Below, in pieces: positions 6,203 to 60,493 of a stretch of DNA of 64,000 nt. The notes under the pieces were generated by a model, which was not told where the DNA came from, ran no database searches, and saw only the letters and a program-made list of their open reading frames with translations. The position numbers were made by a program, and so were the translations under genes. The stretch comes from a virus: IMG/VR virus record IMGVR_UViG_3300046820_001062, positions 59,731 through 123,730 of that record. One strand, 5' to 3'. How positions within the stretch are numbered: position 1 is the first letter of the stretch; the number at the start of each line of letters is the position of its first letter.

Positions 6203-7549
6203 TTAGACTGTATATGTAAATTCACTTATCAATCCTTTGCTTGAATCATGAATGTGCATAATAGCTGAACGCGTATTTCCCACATATTTGTTGTGGTAAT
6301 GGTAATAATCAGAAGAAGTTAAGGCAGGTATAATTCTAGTAACAAAGCCATTTTGTTCATTTTCAGTCACAAACTGTGTTGTTTTACGTCCATGATAATG
6401 ACCTGTGTAAAGCATTCTATATTTAGAAGATCCCCATTCATTTGGAAATTCAACAGCATATACTAATGGATTATTCTTAGCAGTCACGTCCCCATGTTCA
6501 AAACAAAGCATGTTTAAACCATAAGTTAATACCTTTCTCTCTGCATAGGTAACATTAAAATCTATATCTTCCCAAGTCTTAAATGCTTGAGAAACAGCAT
6601 GTAGCAAATGGAATGAACTAAGTCTGTCATGGTTACCTGGAATAAACAATACCTCAAGTTTCTCACAAAACTGTTTAGCTGTTCCAATTGCCTGGCAGAT
6701 ACCATCAAAAGCTTTAATGTAAGCTTCAGTTGCCATCTCTGAGTTCTCTACTGGAGTTCCCTTTGTAGTTGTACCACCAAAGGTGTCCATATTAAGTGTA
6801 TCTGGGCCTATTACAAAGACTATCTTCTCTAAGACATAGTTTCTATTAGCTTTGTCAATTAAGTAGCTTACAGAGTCATTTAAGATCTCTGCCATGTCTT
6901 CGTTCCCTACTTTACCAAAGTGAAGATCCTGTAAAGAAAGAACCCCACAAACTTTTTCTTGAGAACTTGTGTTCTGCCAAAAAGCTGCAGGGTCTAATGG
7001 AGTTATTTGTGGAACCTGATATGTTTCAAGTAACTCTAAAAATGTACTTTGTATTTTTTCTTCTTGTGGTACTCTGCTTACTAGCGCAGATACTAACCAC
7101 TTGGTTCCTTTTTCTTTATTCCAGTATTGAGATAGTTTCCACTTCTTTGTGTCTATCTTCAGTAATGCAATAATTTCTTCAGCACTACGCGGCTCTGTTG
7201 CAGACAGGCCAACAATCTTACTGGTTCCTGATTCCAAGTCTTCATGAATTTCAATTCTCTTAGAATCTTCTTCTTTATTGTGCCATCTGTCTTTAGCATC
7301 AATTCCTAGTTGTTGTTCTAGTTCAAATAAAATTTCTTCATTTGATGCAACATCTGATTTTTTTGTTAACTTTGCTTCAACCATTTTAATGATGACAGAA
7401 TCTATTTTTGAACCTGCTTCATTTAAAACTTTGATTACTTCTTCTTTTATCTTTTGGTAATAAGATAGTGAAATACCTAGTCTTTGAGCTTCAGCTTCTG
7501 CTGACTTTTTTCTTTTTAAGCTATGGTATACTGATGATATAATATTCAT
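6203..7549 (-). CDS. calcineurin-like metallophosphatase with long N-terminal helical region
   Basis: The 448-aa product has a helical, charged N-terminal half (residues 1-200) and a metallophosphoesterase domain. The family motifs appear in order: SLQDLHFGKVG (D-x-H), VIGPDTLN in place of the usual GDxxN, FIPGNHDRL (GNHD), FEHGD, and YTGHYHGRKT (GHxH). These residues normally bind two metals and hydrolyse phosphodiesters or phosphomonoesters. It lies in the virion operon and has its own upstream -7 promoter element at 7578-7585, so it may be transcribed separately from the appendage genes. An SbcD-like nuclease role is possible. The substrate is unknown, and the GPD variant of motif II is unusual. 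Confidence 0.85.
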   Translation of the reverse strand: MNIISSVYHSLKRKKSAEAEAQRLGISLSYYQKIKEEVIKVLNEAGSKIDSVIIKMVEAKLTKKSDVASNEEILFELEQQLGIDAKDRWHNKEEDSKRIEIHEDLESGTSKIVGLSATEPRSAEEIIALLKIDTKKWKLSQYWNKEKGTKWLVSALVSRVPQEEKIQSTFLELLETYQVPQITPLDPAAFWQNTSSQEKVCGVLSLQDLHFGKVGNEDMAEILNDSVSYLIDKANRNYVLEKIVFVIGPDTLNMDTFGGTTTKGTPVENSEMATEAYIKAFDGICQAIGTAKQFCEKLEVLFIPGNHDRLSSFHLLHAVSQAFKTWEDIDFNVTYAERKVLTYGLNMLCFEHGDVTAKNNPLVYAVEFPNEWGSSKYRMLYTGHYHGRKTTQFVTENEQNGFVTRIIPALTSSDYYHYHNKYVGNTRSAIMHIHDSSKGLISEFTYTV

Positions 7550-7701: not shown

Positions 7702-8472
7702 TTAGATTATAATAGTATCTACAGTGTTATCATGCCCTGTAACTGCTGCTGAACAAATATCTGCTCCAGAAGCAAAATAAGCACCTTGTGAGCAAGCATT
7801 GATGCTTCCATAATTAGTACCAGCAGCCACAAGAACTGTAAATGATTGTGTCGTAGTATTAGTACATCCTGCACCTCTTGAGGTCCAATAAACTTCAACA
7901 TTAAAGTTAGTATCTACTGATACAGGAGCATCTAAAGAAACACTTGCACCCATGTGATCATCAATAGTGCCACCAATACAAGGTTCCATTGATCCATAAG
8001 CACCTATTACATTAATAGTAGTTCCTTCACCACAAGCACCATTAATAGTAAGTTCAGATTCATTACCTAATATAACACTTCCTTCTCTAGCACAAAATGT
8101 AGTTGCATCGTATCCACTAACACCTCCAACAGTCACTTGTTGAATCTGACCTCCACAATCTATATAAGCTGTAGTTTGTGCTTGAGCTGAACTAGTTGAT
8201 ACTGTATAAGAAATACAGTTTTCAGCAGGACAATCTAATGCAGTGGCTACAGTTGATGCTGCAGTGCTCTGATCAGATTGATATTCTCCTGTAGGGCAAT
8301 TTGTTTTTACTGTTACATTATATGATACTCCACATTCAATACCTGTTGTAATAACCACAGGTGAAGAAGATGCCGTTGTACATGTTGGAGTACCACCAGT
8401 TGTAGGAACATAACAAACTTCATAGCTTGTTATTCCAGGTACTGGTGTGAAATTTACTGTTAATTGTGCCAT
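7702..8472 (-). CDS. appendage protein starting in mid fibronectin-III domain (third of the FN3 series)
   Basis: The 256-aa product begins MAQLTVNFTPVPGITSYEV, which is strand B onward of a fibronectin type III domain. The missing strand A (CPAPTNLSAVVS) is the exact C-terminus of the upstream protein. A Cys-containing FN3-like end follows (GVSYNVTVKTNC), then about 170 residues of Thr/Ser/Gly-rich beta sequence with spaced Cys residues. There is no signal peptide, and enzyme motifs are absent. It is the last gene of its transcription unit; a strong terminator follows at 7626-7654. Likely a distal tail-appendage or receptor-contact subunit. Confidence 0.7.
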   Translation of the reverse strand: MAQLTVNFTPVPGITSYEVCYVPTTGGTPTCTTASSSPVVITTGIECGVSYNVTVKTNCPTGEYQSDQSTAASTVATALDCPAENCISYTVSTSSAQAQTTAYIDCGGQIQQVTVGGVSGYDATTFCAREGSVILGNESELTINGACGEGTTINVIGAYGSMEPCIGGTIDDHMGASVSLDAPVSVDTNFNVEVYWTSRGAGCTNTTTQSFTVLVAAGTNYGSINACSQGAYFASGADICSAAVTGHDNTVDTIII

Positions 8473-8497
8473 ATTAATATGATTTTTTATAATTCTT

Positions 8498-9031
8498 TTA
8501 AGATACTACAGCTGATAGATTTGTTGGTGCAGGACATGCAGGTGCGTCATTAATTGTAACTGAACCTGAACAGTTTGCAACATTAGTACCAACAGCAATA
8601 GTAAAACTATAGTTGTAAGTAACACCATAATCACCTACAAAATTTATTACAGTTCCTGTAGGTCCTTCAGCAACATTATATGGAGCTTGTCCATCAACGT
8701 TAATGTCGCCAGAATAGATAGCATCTCCTGTCAAATCAGGAAAACCAAGAGTTACATTTCTACCTTCTACAAATTCTCCAACACTTGGACAAACTGCTTT
8801 ACCAGCTTGAACATCTGTTGAATCTGTAGGACCACCAACTTCACATAAATTTACAATTTGATAAGTATATAATACATTATCTAATGCAGTAGTATCTGAA
8901 TAGTTAGAGGTAGCAGCGGGTAAAACAGAGCTGATATCTGCAAAAGAACCAGCTCCTGATTTTCTTTGAACTTTCTGACCTGTACTGTTTGCATCATTTA
9001 CAGGTGTCCATGAAAGATTTATTGTTGCCAT
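8498..9031 (-). CDS. appendage protein bracketed by two half FN3 domains
   Basis: The 177-aa product starts MATINLSWTPVNDANSTG and continues as an FN3 domain (KVQRKSGAGSF, YTYQIVNLCE) that lacks strand A. The middle is a beta-rich module (residues about 85-160). It ends ACPAPTNLSAVVS, an isolated FN3 strand A with no continuation. Thus both ends are complementary half domains to its neighbours. The start follows a 32-nt A/T-rich leader in another frame than the upstream gene, and the leader holds stops, so read-through cannot join the two proteins. Inferred role: a linker subunit of a tail appendage. Confidence 0.7.
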   Translation of the reverse strand: MATINLSWTPVNDANSTGQKVQRKSGAGSFADISSVLPAATSNYSDTTALDNVLYTYQIVNLCEVGGPTDSTDVQAGKAVCPSVGEFVEGRNVTLGFPDLTGDAIYSGDINVDGQAPYNVAEGPTGTVINFVGDYGVTYNYSFTIAVGTNVANCSGSVTINDAPACPAPTNLSAVVS

Positions 9032-9063
9032 TTTATTTTAATTTTTTATTTTAATTATTTTAG

Positions 9064-10527
9064 TTATGAAACTGTTGCTGTTAAGTTTGTTGGTGCAGGA
9101 CACTCTTCAGGAGGTCTACATGCATTTTTTACAAATGATATTTCTACAGTTGTAGATTCACCAAAGTTTTCACAAATTGTTTTAGCTTTAACTTTATATG
9201 TATCACCTGCAATTAATCCTAAACCAAAGAAGTTAGCACTTGCGGAACCTCCACCAGGTACACTTATAGTTTGGGTATCAACATCTACGTTACCACCTGT
9301 CACATGTACCAATGTAAACTGAATGCTTAATGCAGTTGGATCACTAACTGTAGCAGTTGCTGTAATTCCACTTTCAGTTTTAGTACATACCTCTTCGTAT
9401 CCTAAACCTGTTGGTACTGGACATTCAGATACACATTCTAAAGTTGTAGTTGAAGCAGTAATCCAAGCAGAATCACCACCTGTACATTTAGTTTTAACTC
9501 TTACATTATAGTTTGTTAATTGAGTCAAACCAGATACTGTAATTGTATTTGGACCACTAAGAGTAGTTGTCAACATTCCACCTGCAGTCCAGTTTGCAGA
9601 ACCTGCAACTTGATATTCTAATGTTACATTAGGATTGCTAGGAATATGAGCTATATCTGCAACAAATGCTTCACAGTCTACATTAGTAATACTAAATTCT
9701 GGAGCAGGACAAGGAGCAGGACAAGCAATAACAGTAACAGGTAATGTTGTAACAACATCACAAAGACCAAATGCACTATTTTTAGTTACTTTAACGATAT
9801 AAGTGCCAGGAGCAACACCACCAAAGTTATACATATAACTAGATGACATACCTGTTGGTGTAAATGTGTGTGATTGTAAAACAACAGTAGGACTAGAAGT
9901 ACTAACTAATTCAGCAAGTAAACTTGTAGCAGTACCATCATCAGAAAAAGAAACTTCAAATGAAGCACATACTAATGATCTACCAAAAATGTTTGTAATG
10001 GGATTACATGAAGTACATGATTCTGTTTCTTCTAATGCAGGGCATGGTGTTCCATCACATGATGCTGGAGTAGTAATGGTTCTTGTTCTAGTTCTAACTC
10101 CTCCTACACAATCTGACCAAGGACCCCAAGCAGATACAACACAGTTAACAGGCAAACAACATTCTCTAGTTTCTTCTAGATCAGGACAAGCTGCTCCACC
10201 ATTTTGAGGTGCTTGAATAACTGTTCTTGTTCTAGTTTGAACACCATTTAAACATTCTGACCATTCAGACCATGCTGATACCTCACAATCAACAACTGGA
10301 GGTGTACCATCGCAACAATCACAAAGTTTGTTTGCAATGATTTGCAATACTTGATTAAGATTAGCACCTGTAGTAATTCCAAGACATGGAATTGCAGGTC
10401 CTGTATATCTAACACATGTGTCAAGAACTATCTCTTCACATGGTTCTCCAGTACAATCTGGTGGTGCAGGAAGCTCAACACAAGGTTCTGGCTCGTTGCA
10501 CTGATGACAATATTGATTAGGATACAT
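9064..10527 (-). CDS. appendage protein with two thrombospondin type 1 repeats and FN3 domains
   Basis: The 487-aa Cys-rich product begins with a short Cys/Pro module and a motif shared with the 520-aa neighbour (YTGPAIPCLGITTG). Two thrombospondin type 1 repeats follow at residues of about 80-170, with the marks CEVSAWSEWSEC, RTRTV and CVVSAWGPWSDC, RTRTI. Next come an Ig/FN3-like domain and two CPAP/CPVP-led FN3 domains. The protein stops after CPAPTNLTATVS, i.e. after strand A of one more FN3 domain; the next gene supplies the rest. There is no signal peptide. A virion surface appendage is likely, with carbohydrate or protein binding on the host inferred from domain types. Confidence 0.75.
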   Translation of the reverse strand: MYPNQYCHQCNEPEPCVELPAPPDCTGEPCEEIVLDTCVRYTGPAIPCLGITTGANLNQVLQIIANKLCDCCDGTPPVVDCEVSAWSEWSECLNGVQTRTRTVIQAPQNGGAACPDLEETRECCLPVNCVVSAWGPWSDCVGGVRTRTRTITTPASCDGTPCPALEETESCTSCNPITNIFGRSLVCASFEVSFSDDGTATSLLAELVSTSSPTVVLQSHTFTPTGMSSSYMYNFGGVAPGTYIVKVTKNSAFGLCDVVTTLPVTVIACPAPCPAPEFSITNVDCEAFVADIAHIPSNPNVTLEYQVAGSANWTAGGMLTTTLSGPNTITVSGLTQLTNYNVRVKTKCTGGDSAWITASTTTLECVSECPVPTGLGYEEVCTKTESGITATATVSDPTALSIQFTLVHVTGGNVDVDTQTISVPGGGSASANFFGLGLIAGDTYKVKAKTICENFGESTTVEISFVKNACRPPEECPAPTNLTATVS

Positions 10528-10556: not shown

Positions 10557-12119
10557 TTAACAAGTTACTTCACCTGCGCATGCCACAGCTCTATTTGTAG
10601 AAATTGCACCTAGACAATCATAAGTTTTATACTTAGGAGTACATGGATCAACTCCACATTTCACATATCTCTCCATTTCATAAATATGATCTACTGAAGA
10701 AACACCTGTTGCAAATGTTTTTGTAATTGATTCAGACACAGCAAGTGAACAATCTCCATCAACTGTATAATTAATTACTGCTGTAAATGGAGCAAGTGAG
10801 TTTGCTACAGGATTTCCAGTAACAATATCTTTCAATGTAAGTGTAGTTTTTCTTCTCTTTGTTACATAAGAGTCACCATCACATACTGTTGTAATATCAT
10901 CAAGTGATACATCAGTTACACTAACACAATAAAGTACAGTTGTCAAAGCTATTTTACCTACAATTGTTGCAACTGTTGAATCATCACAGCTATACTCTGC
11001 TACAATTTGTACTTGATAATCTTTTGCAGGATCAGGAACAACTGTTATATCATGGAAATTAGTTCCAAAAGGTTTTACAACATTTAAAATTGGTGAACCA
11101 ACTGTTGATGAACCATTCCATTCATACACTTTAACAGTATATTGTAATGGAGCTTCTGATACAGTGCCTGTAGCTGGAGCTGACCAAGTTATTTTAGAAC
11201 CTGAAGATGTTAGATTTGTAATCTGAATATTTGATACAGGAAGTGGTACACATGGTAAAGTAGTATTTGAACTATTAACAATTGCAGCTCTCATATCACA
11301 AATTGTTAACCACATGTTTACTATAGTTTCTGACAAAGTAGTTGGATTTGCAACCCAACCTGGTATCAATGACATTGATGCCGCAGGATTACTTAAAGGT
11401 TCTGCAGAATCTAAACTTGCACATTCTGTTCCAATTGCTGTTGATAGTGCAGCATTAGTTCCAAGTAATGTTGTCAATTGACAGAATTTACTTTCAAATG
11501 CTGAAAATGCAGTACCAATTGGCACAACAGTTCCTGGTGTTGATGAACTTGCACATTGAGATACAACAGAAATTGAAGCTCCTGTTCCACCTCCACCACC
11601 TGAATTTGCTTCAAGTGCTGCAACTCTTCCACCTAAGTTGTCAAGAGTTGAGTTAATGCTAGTTATATCATCAATGATTTCACATATTTTAGATGCTAAA
11701 TAAGCACTATATTCATTTGGCAATAATGCTGTAACTTCATCACCATCCTCTGTAAAATATAAACAAGCAGGTAATGAAATAGGTGTTGGTGTTGAACCAC
11801 CTCCAGAACTTTCACCACAACAAGTAGAAGCAATTTGACATTGCTTATCTATCATTGCTTGTAAAGCTCCAAGAATTGTTGTAGGTTCTGCTACACCTGG
11901 AGCAAGAATACATTTAAAATCAAGTGTACTTAAATCAATAACACCTGAAGTTATTTCACACAACTTGGTTGCTAGATCAAAAATAACATCTGTAATTGTA
12001 TCTCCTTTACAAAGATCAATACAAGGAATATCTGGACCTTGCCAAATAACACAAGAAGATGATGTTTTTGTACATCCATCTTCAGGTTTTAATTTTAAGT
12101 TGCTGTGTAATGGTTTCAT
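10557..12119 (-). CDS. Cys-rich repeat appendage/fibre protein with C-terminal FN3
   Basis: The 520-aa product opens with WQGPDIPCIDLCKGDTITD, related to the N-terminal motif of the 487-aa neighbour. It then repeats a module of about 40-60 residues that starts near a Cys and ends in a helix of the type LASKICEI, FESKFCQL or VNMWLTICDM, at least four times up to residue 275. An FN3 domain follows (residues of about 300-390, ITWSAPATGTVSEAPLQYTVKVYEW) and then a Cys-containing beta C-terminus. The start overlaps the stop of the gene at 12119-12343 by one base. The repeats look like trimer-forming shaft segments; this is inference. Confidence 0.7.
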   Translation of the reverse strand: MKPLHSNLKLKPEDGCTKTSSSCVIWQGPDIPCIDLCKGDTITDVIFDLATKLCEITSGVIDLSTLDFKCILAPGVAEPTTILGALQAMIDKQCQIASTCCGESSGGGSTPTPISLPACLYFTEDGDEVTALLPNEYSAYLASKICEIIDDITSINSTLDNLGGRVAALEANSGGGGGTGASISVVSQCASSSTPGTVVPIGTAFSAFESKFCQLTTLLGTNAALSTAIGTECASLDSAEPLSNPAASMSLIPGWVANPTTLSETIVNMWLTICDMRAAIVNSSNTTLPCVPLPVSNIQITNLTSSGSKITWSAPATGTVSEAPLQYTVKVYEWNGSSTVGSPILNVVKPFGTNFHDITVVPDPAKDYQVQIVAEYSCDDSTVATIVGKIALTTVLYCVSVTDVSLDDITTVCDGDSYVTKRRKTTLTLKDIVTGNPVANSLAPFTAVINYTVDGDCSLAVSESITKTFATGVSSVDHIYEMERYVKCGVDPCTPKYKTYDCLGAISTNRAVACAGEVTC

Positions 12120-14507: not shown

Positions 14508-14951
14508 TTATTTTAAGAAAAGCAGTTTATACTTAATAGAGTTGATAGTACTTTTAACGTTATCCAGGTCATTGACAATCTCACTGTAAGGCATAATTGT
14601 TTGTAAACCAGATACCATTTCTTTCATCTCTCTTAAATAAGATACAGCTTCTTCTACAGAATTCAAAATTCTTGGTGCAGAATCTTCATAATTTAGCAAT
14701 TTTTCTGATGCACCTTGGAATCCTTCAGCAACAGCATCTGCATGTCCAGGTAATGCATCATACAATTCATTTAACGCTTTGTGTGATGAAAATGAACCTA
14801 AACCTGTAACTTTCAAGTGTAACTTATGAAAGCTTACAGAAGCGTTCATTAATTCAGTAACACATGCTGCAGTTTGAGCCTCACATGAAGATCCTGCAGG
14901 ATATCCTGTAGTTGTTCTTTTTAAAGTTTTATATTGTCCAGCAAAATCCAT
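14508..14951 (-). CDS. Dps/ferritin-like protein with intact ferroxidase ligands
   Basis: The 147-aa helical product contains LHLKVTGLGSFSSHKALNE and LYDALPGHADAVAEG. The residues H45, H57, D72 and E76 have the same spacing (12, 15, 4) as the Dps ferroxidase ligands H51, H63, D78 and E82 of the E. coli protein. The Dps signature around them (H-x-x-V-x-G ... H) is also recognisable. The predicted four helices cover the whole length. Dps proteins form 12-mers that oxidise and store iron and may bind DNA. The gene lies between a ring-type protein and the abundant 384-aa structural protein, so the product may be in the virion. Function is inferred from ligand spacing. Confidence 0.7.
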   Translation of the reverse strand: MDFAGQYKTLKRTTTGYPAGSSCEAQTAACVTELMNASVSFHKLHLKVTGLGSFSSHKALNELYDALPGHADAVAEGFQGASEKLLNYEDSAPRILNSVEEAVSYLREMKEMVSGLQTIMPYSEIVNDLDNVKSTINSIKYKLLFLK

Positions 14952-59485: not shown

Positions 59486-60493
59486 ATGTTTTCATCTAAA
59501 CACCATATAACAGATATCAATACTATACCATCTGCTTGGATATTTGAAAACTATCTTGGTTTACCAGAAAAATTAACAGGACAAAGTGTTAGAATCAATA
59601 GTCTTTTCAATTTAAATGATAAGACTCCATCAATGTACATATATTATAATGCAGAGCATAAAGTGTATAAGTACAAGTGCTTTTCTACAGGAAAAGGTGG
59701 TGGTGCAATTGATTTAATGATGCACATGTGGGACCTGAATTTTGCTGATGCTTCTCACAGAGTGATTAAAGATTATGTAGACTATCTTAAAACAGGTAGA
59801 ATATGTGAAACAAGTATTACTCAACATTCAAAGTGGAAAGTAGACAAATGGCAAACCAGAGGCTGGAATGAAAATGACGCCAAGTTTTGGTCAGCATATA
59901 ACATATCAAGTAAGATTCTAAACAATTACAATGTGATTCCTTTGGACAGATATGTTATGCAGAAAGTATTGAATGACAAAGAAATAGAAGATGAATTCAC
60001 AGTAGTAAGTAAACATGTTTATGGTTATTTCACGCGTGATGGTATCCTCTATAAGATCTATCAGCCAATGAATAGAGAACGCAAGTTTATTAAGATTTGT
60101 GATTATATTCAAGGTTACGATCAGTTAGAGAAGAAACCAATTATTGTAATTGCTTCTTCACTAAAAGATTGCATGGCAATCAAGAGTATGGGCTTAAACA
60201 TTGACGTTATAGCACCAGACAGTGAGAACAGCATGCTGCATCCAGATGTAATCTTTGAACTCAAAGAAGAATATGAATCAGTAGTGACTGTTTTTGACAG
60301 CGATGACGCAGGAATAAAAGCAATGAAAGCTTATGAAGAAAAATATAAGCTACCATTTTGTTACTTACCACTAGAAAAAGACATTGCTGACATTGTCAAA
60401 ATCCATGGTGTAAAGAAAGCAATCTATGAGTTTGTTCCTAAGCTTGATAATGCCTGTGACAAATATGCAAAATTGCATTTAGATAATGATTAA
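59486..60493 (+). CDS. DnaG-like primase with Toprim domain
   Basis: The 335-aa product starts at ATG 59,486. The N-terminal part (residues 1-110) resembles the primase zinc-binding domain in outline (YKYKCFSTGKGGGAIDLMMH), but only one Cys is kept. The Toprim domain has IVIASSLKDCMAIKSMGLN in place of the usual Glu motif and FDSDDAGIKAM as the DxD motif. It makes primers for the fork. The missing Toprim Glu is unusual. It follows the SSB candidate and precedes the GIY-YIG gene. Confidence 0.8.
   Translation: MFSSKHHITDINTIPSAWIFENYLGLPEKLTGQSVRINSLFNLNDKTPSMYIYYNAEHKVYKYKCFSTGKGGGAIDLMMHMWDLNFADASHRVIKDYVDYLKTGRICETSITQHSKWKVDKWQTRGWNENDAKFWSAYNISSKILNNYNVIPLDRYVMQKVLNDKEIEDEFTVVSKHVYGYFTRDGILYKIYQPMNRERKFIKICDYIQGYDQLEKKPIIVIASSLKDCMAIKSMGLNIDVIAPDSENSMLHPDVIFELKEEYESVVTVFDSDDAGIKAMKAYEEKYKLPFCYLPLEKDIADIVKIHGVKKAIYEFVPKLDNACDKYAKLHLDND

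Follow-up and report, generated by a model that had tools for sequence, protein, structure and literature searches.

What arrangement of proteins is encoded by a row of phage genes in which the same domain appears to be broken at the same point at two consecutive gene junctions? The question arises from IMGVR_UViG_3300046820_001062, a 123,730-base record of a crAss-like virus, of which a stretch of 64,000 nucleotides (positions 59,731 to 123,730), here called the window, was analysed. The initial annotation, made from the letters alone, placed both breaks between strands A and B of a fibronectin type III (FN3) domain, and suggested that the C-terminal strand A of one protein, the donor, completes the incomplete half domain, the acceptor, at the start of the next. 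The relatives used for comparison are designated here by L numbers.

The locus and the double cut

In profile searches, the major capsid protein of the window matched Crass_capsid (4.5e-33) and the ring proteins matched CrAss_Ring_2 (2.2e-22) and Ring_1 (9.6e-10), and this combination of Crass capsid and ring proteins assigns the virus to the Crassvirales. The interval from the capsid gene to the ring genes contains, on the minus strand, genes for proteins of 520, 487, 177 and 256 aa. The ORF for the 520-aa neighbour (10557–12119, minus strand) has a second anchor-like N-terminus (CVIWQGPDIPCI) and no donor tail, while its homologues in L024, L027 and genomes of the L063–L082 type mostly have such a tail at their end. 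Two further genes were noted here, both on the minus strand. A 147-aa gene among the structural genes (14508–14951) matches DUF5856/ferritin-like proteins and a PHROG named starvation-inducible regulator (Dps-like), and a DNA repair exonuclease-like gene (6203–7549; phrog_704, 1.7e-47) separates the appendage genes from the ring genes, as it does in the close relatives examined.

Both junctions of the 487-aa, 177-aa and 256-aa genes (10527–7702, minus strand) fall between strand A and strand B of an FN3 domain, and the sequences, gaps and frames are exactly as first reported. The 487-aa appendage protein (ORF, 9064–10527, minus strand) has an anchor-like N-terminal domain (CVRYTGPAIPCLGI), two TSP1 repeats, Ig/FN3-like domains (fn3, 1e-4) and a C-terminus that reads ECPAPTNLTATVS. 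Its last 12 residues (476–487; CPAPTNLTATVS; 9067–9102, minus strand) are the first donor strand, and the joined profile described below puts such tails on FN3 strand A. The TSP1 repeats (TSP1_spondin, 3.2e-21) vary in copy number among the anchor proteins of the window, L060 and L061. Thrombospondin type 1 repeats are otherwise typical of animal proteins.

A 32-nt A/T-rich leader (9032–9063, minus strand), predicted to be unstructured, separates this gene from the ORF for the 177-aa protein (8498–9031, minus strand), which reads MATINLSWTPV at its start and CPAPTNLSAVVS at its end. It comprises an N-terminal half FN3 (strands B–G), a second beta domain and a C-terminal donor strand. Alignments and joins place the first acceptor half, which lacks strand A, at 8798–9031 (minus strand), and the second donor strand occupies residues 166–177 (8501–8536, minus strand). 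After a 25-nt leader, also A/T-rich and predicted to be unstructured (8473–8497, minus strand), the 256-aa protein (ORF, 7702–8472, minus strand) begins with MAQLTVNFTPV. The second acceptor half, again without strand A, lies at 8230–8472 (minus strand) and was modelled with AlphaFold2; it is followed by more beta domains, and there is no donor strand. The protein ends in a knob domain (MEPCIGGTIDD; GSMEPCIGGTIDD; 7702–8001, minus strand) that also ends large structural proteins in many other phages and appears to be a mobile tip domain with no known name.

FN3 character of the joined halves and recurrence of the cut

The Pfam fn3 profile was not detected in the acceptors of the window alone, nor in the window's own two joins of donor tail and acceptor. 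In the relatives it was found in 6 of 10 natural joins, with scores of 12.8–19.9 bits that all lie under the Pfam curated cut-off of 25, and in just one of the 10 acceptors alone. Five of the six detected joins match from profile position 2–3, and the remaining one, from L003, matches from position 11. When tails were exchanged within the same genome, the wrong tails gave 13.1 bits at best, from position 16, or no match, whereas the natural tails gave 19.9, 19.0 and 18.9 bits from position 2. A profile built from 16 joins matched human fibronectin (3t1w) with an E-value of 7.9e-22. The alignment puts the donor residues on strand A; the junction falls in the A–B turn. Intact FN3 domains with strand A in place occur in the same phages, and hhalign matched the joined profile to them over columns 1–77 (probability 97.4, E 1.2e-11). 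Judged by sequence, a whole FN3 (PF00041) domain is thus recognizable in the joins only. At none of the 24 listed joins are all seven strands in one polypeptide, as strand A is in the upstream gene.

The cut is common to four close relatives, all of which have homologues of the 487-aa protein. In L002 and L003, where ring protein 2 is 97% and 91% identical to that of the window, the 177-aa gene is absent, the anchors of 533 and 483 aa end in ACPAPTGVSATVTA and ACPSPTNVSGTITDILT, respectively, and the gene that follows begins MATLTINFTPV. The same start follows CPQPTDLTATVTA in L005, which also has no 177-aa gene. L026 does have a spacer: its 555-aa protein ends in CPPPTDLIATISE and is followed by a 177-aa protein (MATINLSWTPAGG at the start, CPVPTGLSASVIDVS at the end) and by a 178-aa protein that starts MAELSINFTPV. 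Where the 177-aa gene is present (the window and L026), both types of boundary are kept. As the break is conserved in all four genomes, we conclude that it is old and that the spacer is an optional module with a boundary of each kind. Sequencing error and recent breakage were rejected, as contigs independent of one another share the cut.

More distant genomes also have the cut. L024, with a ring protein 2 that is 56% identical to that of the window, contains a row of 194-, 183-, 230- and 391-aa genes with the same boundaries, in which a long tail extends the 230-aa gene beyond the donor strand, plus a 406-aa and 378-aa pair. L027 contains a 409-aa and 233-aa pair, and a partial gene ending in CDAPTGLTVQVVQS lies ahead of a 242-aa acceptor. 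Hairpins with similar flanks were found between donor and acceptor genes at L024:2167-2256 (z −5.1) and L027:413-478 (z −5.7), and may be terminators, processing sites or recoding elements. L060–L082 were added by a final scan that used the anchor domain. In most of these genomes, a 405–414-aa anchor ending like VPCPIISSVTATLT is followed after a single base by MNVTLNWTPGAG. L062 has anchor, spacer and tip in the same order as the window, and L060 and L061 encode anchor and tip on one chain, without an FN3 junction of this kind.

In total, a pattern search of approximately 20 crAss-like virus genomes yielded 24 pairs of adjacent donor and acceptor genes, to which inspection by eye added several more, and none of the genomes surveyed has this FN3 domain uncut at this place. 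The prediction that related phages would carry the same boundary, and would not carry one-gene homologues, was therefore borne out. Of 563 non-redundant gene ends, 39 show the strand-A donor signature. This gene system accounts for 38 of these, and in 25 cases the donor-type end directly precedes one of the 42 acceptor-type start positions (hypergeometric P about 1e-22, a descriptive value only, as the patterns were written after examples had been seen and the genomes are related). The domain that precedes the tail varies, being FN3-like in the window and L005, Ig-like in L002 and L003 and TSP1 in L026, and the tail is kept throughout. Proteins with only a donor (487, 533 and 411 aa) and proteins with only an acceptor (256 and 260 aa) both occur, and some acceptors have no adjacent donor (255 aa in L026 and 194 aa in L024). 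In L063–L082, the spacer is followed by another gene type, and acceptor-only genes again stand without an adjacent donor. In genomes of this type (for example, L065:6956-9916), a spacer and a donor-less anchor gene are followed by 2–4 acceptor-like genes; acceptors thus outnumber donors, and the surplus may represent alternative tips.

Outside this group, the split system was not found in three named crass-like records that are near by capsid protein, and the split and its anchors had no matches in the named phages tested. Searching bacterial genomes with the 177-type half domain, viral contigs with a DNA pattern for the junction, and the single 177-aa protein as query returned no matches.

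Proposed donor-strand complementation and its alternatives

We consider it probable that the C-terminal strand A of each donor completes the FN3 domain with which the next protein begins, which would yield an appendage ordered anchor, spacer, tip. The anchor, here the 487-aa protein, would end in strand A of a domain absent from itself. The 177-aa spacer would start with an FN3 half that lacks strand A and end with an orphan strand A of its own, and the 256-aa tip would have such a half at its start and the knob at its end. Each C-terminal strand would fill a groove in the N-terminal part of its successor, which would fix how the subunits are ordered in the virion, and spacers could be gained or lost without gene fusion. 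Two hallmarks of complementation can be read from the genes, namely an acceptor fold that is short of one strand, with the gene starting at strand B, and a matching strand at the end of the neighbouring protein. That the donor tail is kept despite differences in the preceding domain supports complementation beyond mere similarity, and the presence of anchor and tip on one chain in L060 and L061 suggests that the two are physically linked. The ordered chain first envisaged is accordingly supported by the cut, its recurrence and the joined profile, with the amendment that the parts are not always three consecutive genes. The several genomes in which donors and acceptors lie apart or differ in number count against it.

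Structure prediction was compatible with docking of the strand. For the 256-aa protein alone, AlphaFold2 (six-row alignment) modelled the half FN3 (residues 1–60) with confidence in blocks of 79–88. In a tethered chain, the translated leader linked the 177-aa protein to residues 1–86 of the 256-aa protein. In that model, the donor tail formed a strand at 170–179 (blocks of 89–91) and the main blocks of the acceptor reached 91–97, a rise from about 84 alone to about 94 tethered. The half domain that opens the 177-aa protein, for which the chain contained no donor, stayed at 70–89 in its main blocks. The tethered model is biased, as the linker favours docking and the alignment held joined rows from L002 and L003. 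The half domain is predicted to fold alone, at lower confidence, and strand A may not be essential to it, which weakens the case for complementation but does not refute it. Several MAFFT alignments prepared for folding were discarded because they superimposed the two acceptor types. Foldseek comparison of the 256-aa model with PDB and BFVD returned generic FN3/Ig matches only.

That the half domain is modelled without a partner is also what would be expected if the boundary were a relic, with an ancestral fused gene broken once in the A–B loop, the halves kept for other reasons and able to fold without strand A, and the tails idle. The two junctions of the window share a 55-nt repeat (73% identity), which fits an origin of the spacer through recombination at this point. 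However, an idle hydrophobic tail of 12 residues should erode, and the tails end at the same point in approximately 20 genomes, after quite different domains and before two acceptor types, so a relic appears unlikely. The presence of an acceptor half and a donor strand on one spacer raises a different prospect, that spacers (177 and 183–185 aa) are completed by the strand at their own C-terminus, either as circular permutants or in self-polymers, and that the neighbours are not partners. The donor tails of different genes are alike, and specificity for a partner is not evident. Yet donor-only and acceptor-only proteins exist, several phages are without any spacer, and the tethered model sends the tail of the 177-aa protein to the 256-aa half, with the protein's own half domain lower in confidence, an outcome that the linker favours. 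We regard self-complementation as very unlikely.

Covalent joining by recoding, whether through stop read-through, frameshift or ribosome bypass, would leave the FN3 domain intact in a single polypeptide. Some junctions look suited to it: L002 is in frame across 24 nt with a single TAA, many junctions are only 1–3 nt apart, and the junction type of L024 and L027 has a stable conserved hairpin. Across the set, though, the gaps are −1, 1, 2, 3, 10, 15, 24, 25, 31, 32, 38 and 85 nt and use all three frames, and every downstream gene retains an ATG of its own at strand B. Two in-frame stops are present in L003. Both leaders of the window change the reading frame and, as was noted at the outset, the first contains a stop, a TAA nine bases before the downstream ATG that blocks the frame of that ATG. 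With frames so varied, these stops in place and the window leaders predicted to be unstructured, read-through is most improbable. Programmed frameshifting and bypass were each rejected, as no common frame or structure is found across the junctions. Complementation between separate chains remains our preferred reading.

Relation to known systems

The closest analogue is the type V pilus of Bacteroidetes (FimA/Mfa1 of Porphyromonas gingivalis), in which, according to PMC5954841 (citing Xu et al. 2016), a C-terminal strand from a neighbour occupies the groove that opens where an N-terminal strand is missing. By sequence, the phage genes match this C-terminal donor arrangement, and they likewise appear to encode separate anchor, structural and tip proteins. 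In the pili, the strand is cleaved by a protease from a transthyretin-like fold once the subunit has been exported, whereas the phage strand was never encoded in the acceptor gene; the fold is also different, FN3, and the proteins are those of a phage virion. No fimbrillin match was found in Pfam or NCBIfam, and the strand is missing from the gene and not cleaved off, unlike the lipoprotein/fimbrillin family with its protease maturation. crAss-like phages are, in general, known to infect Bacteroidetes.

Incomplete Ig-like or beta-sandwich subunits are also completed by a neighbour's strand in chaperone–usher (type 1/P) pili and TasA fibres (PMC5954841, PMC9674648). In these the donor strand is N-terminal, unlike that of the phage, and chaperone–usher pilins need a chaperone and an usher; neither family was found among the neighbouring genes scanned. 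With the FN3 (PF00041) domains known in phage structural proteins, the joins share the FN3 match and differ in that one domain derives from two genes. The virion of phi-crAss001 (PMC10172136), a phage of the same order, shares its capsid and ring families with the window, and has flexible fibre assemblies of several proteins; the passages of that paper that were covered do not describe fibre proteins completing one another by strand exchange. The open literature gave no report of phages that use FN3 domains for donor-strand coupling, most subscription-journal papers and bioRxiv preprints lying outside that scope. The remark in the initial annotation that no description was known thus holds for an FN3 version in phage appendages, which appears to be new, and not for donor-strand complementation, which is known, including with a C-terminal donor.

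It is possible, and we suggest it tentatively, that compatible FN3 donor strands and acceptor halves form a general snap-together code, with anchor, spacer and tip exchangeable as whole genes; surplus acceptor-only tips may then give alternative tips on one anchor, and so adhesin diversity without gene fusion. If docking between separate chains and a role in a fibre, which we infer, are correct, donor-strand coupling of the kind used in pili would also build virus appendages, with an FN3 acceptor and apparently with neither chaperone nor protease, and natural split FN3 pairs could be put to use as non-covalent couplers. Such coupling would explain fibre genes that occur as rows of small proteins that annotation fails to recognize as FN3, and the signature of an orphan C-terminal strand A followed by a gene that starts from strand B would predict the contacts and order of virion proteins.
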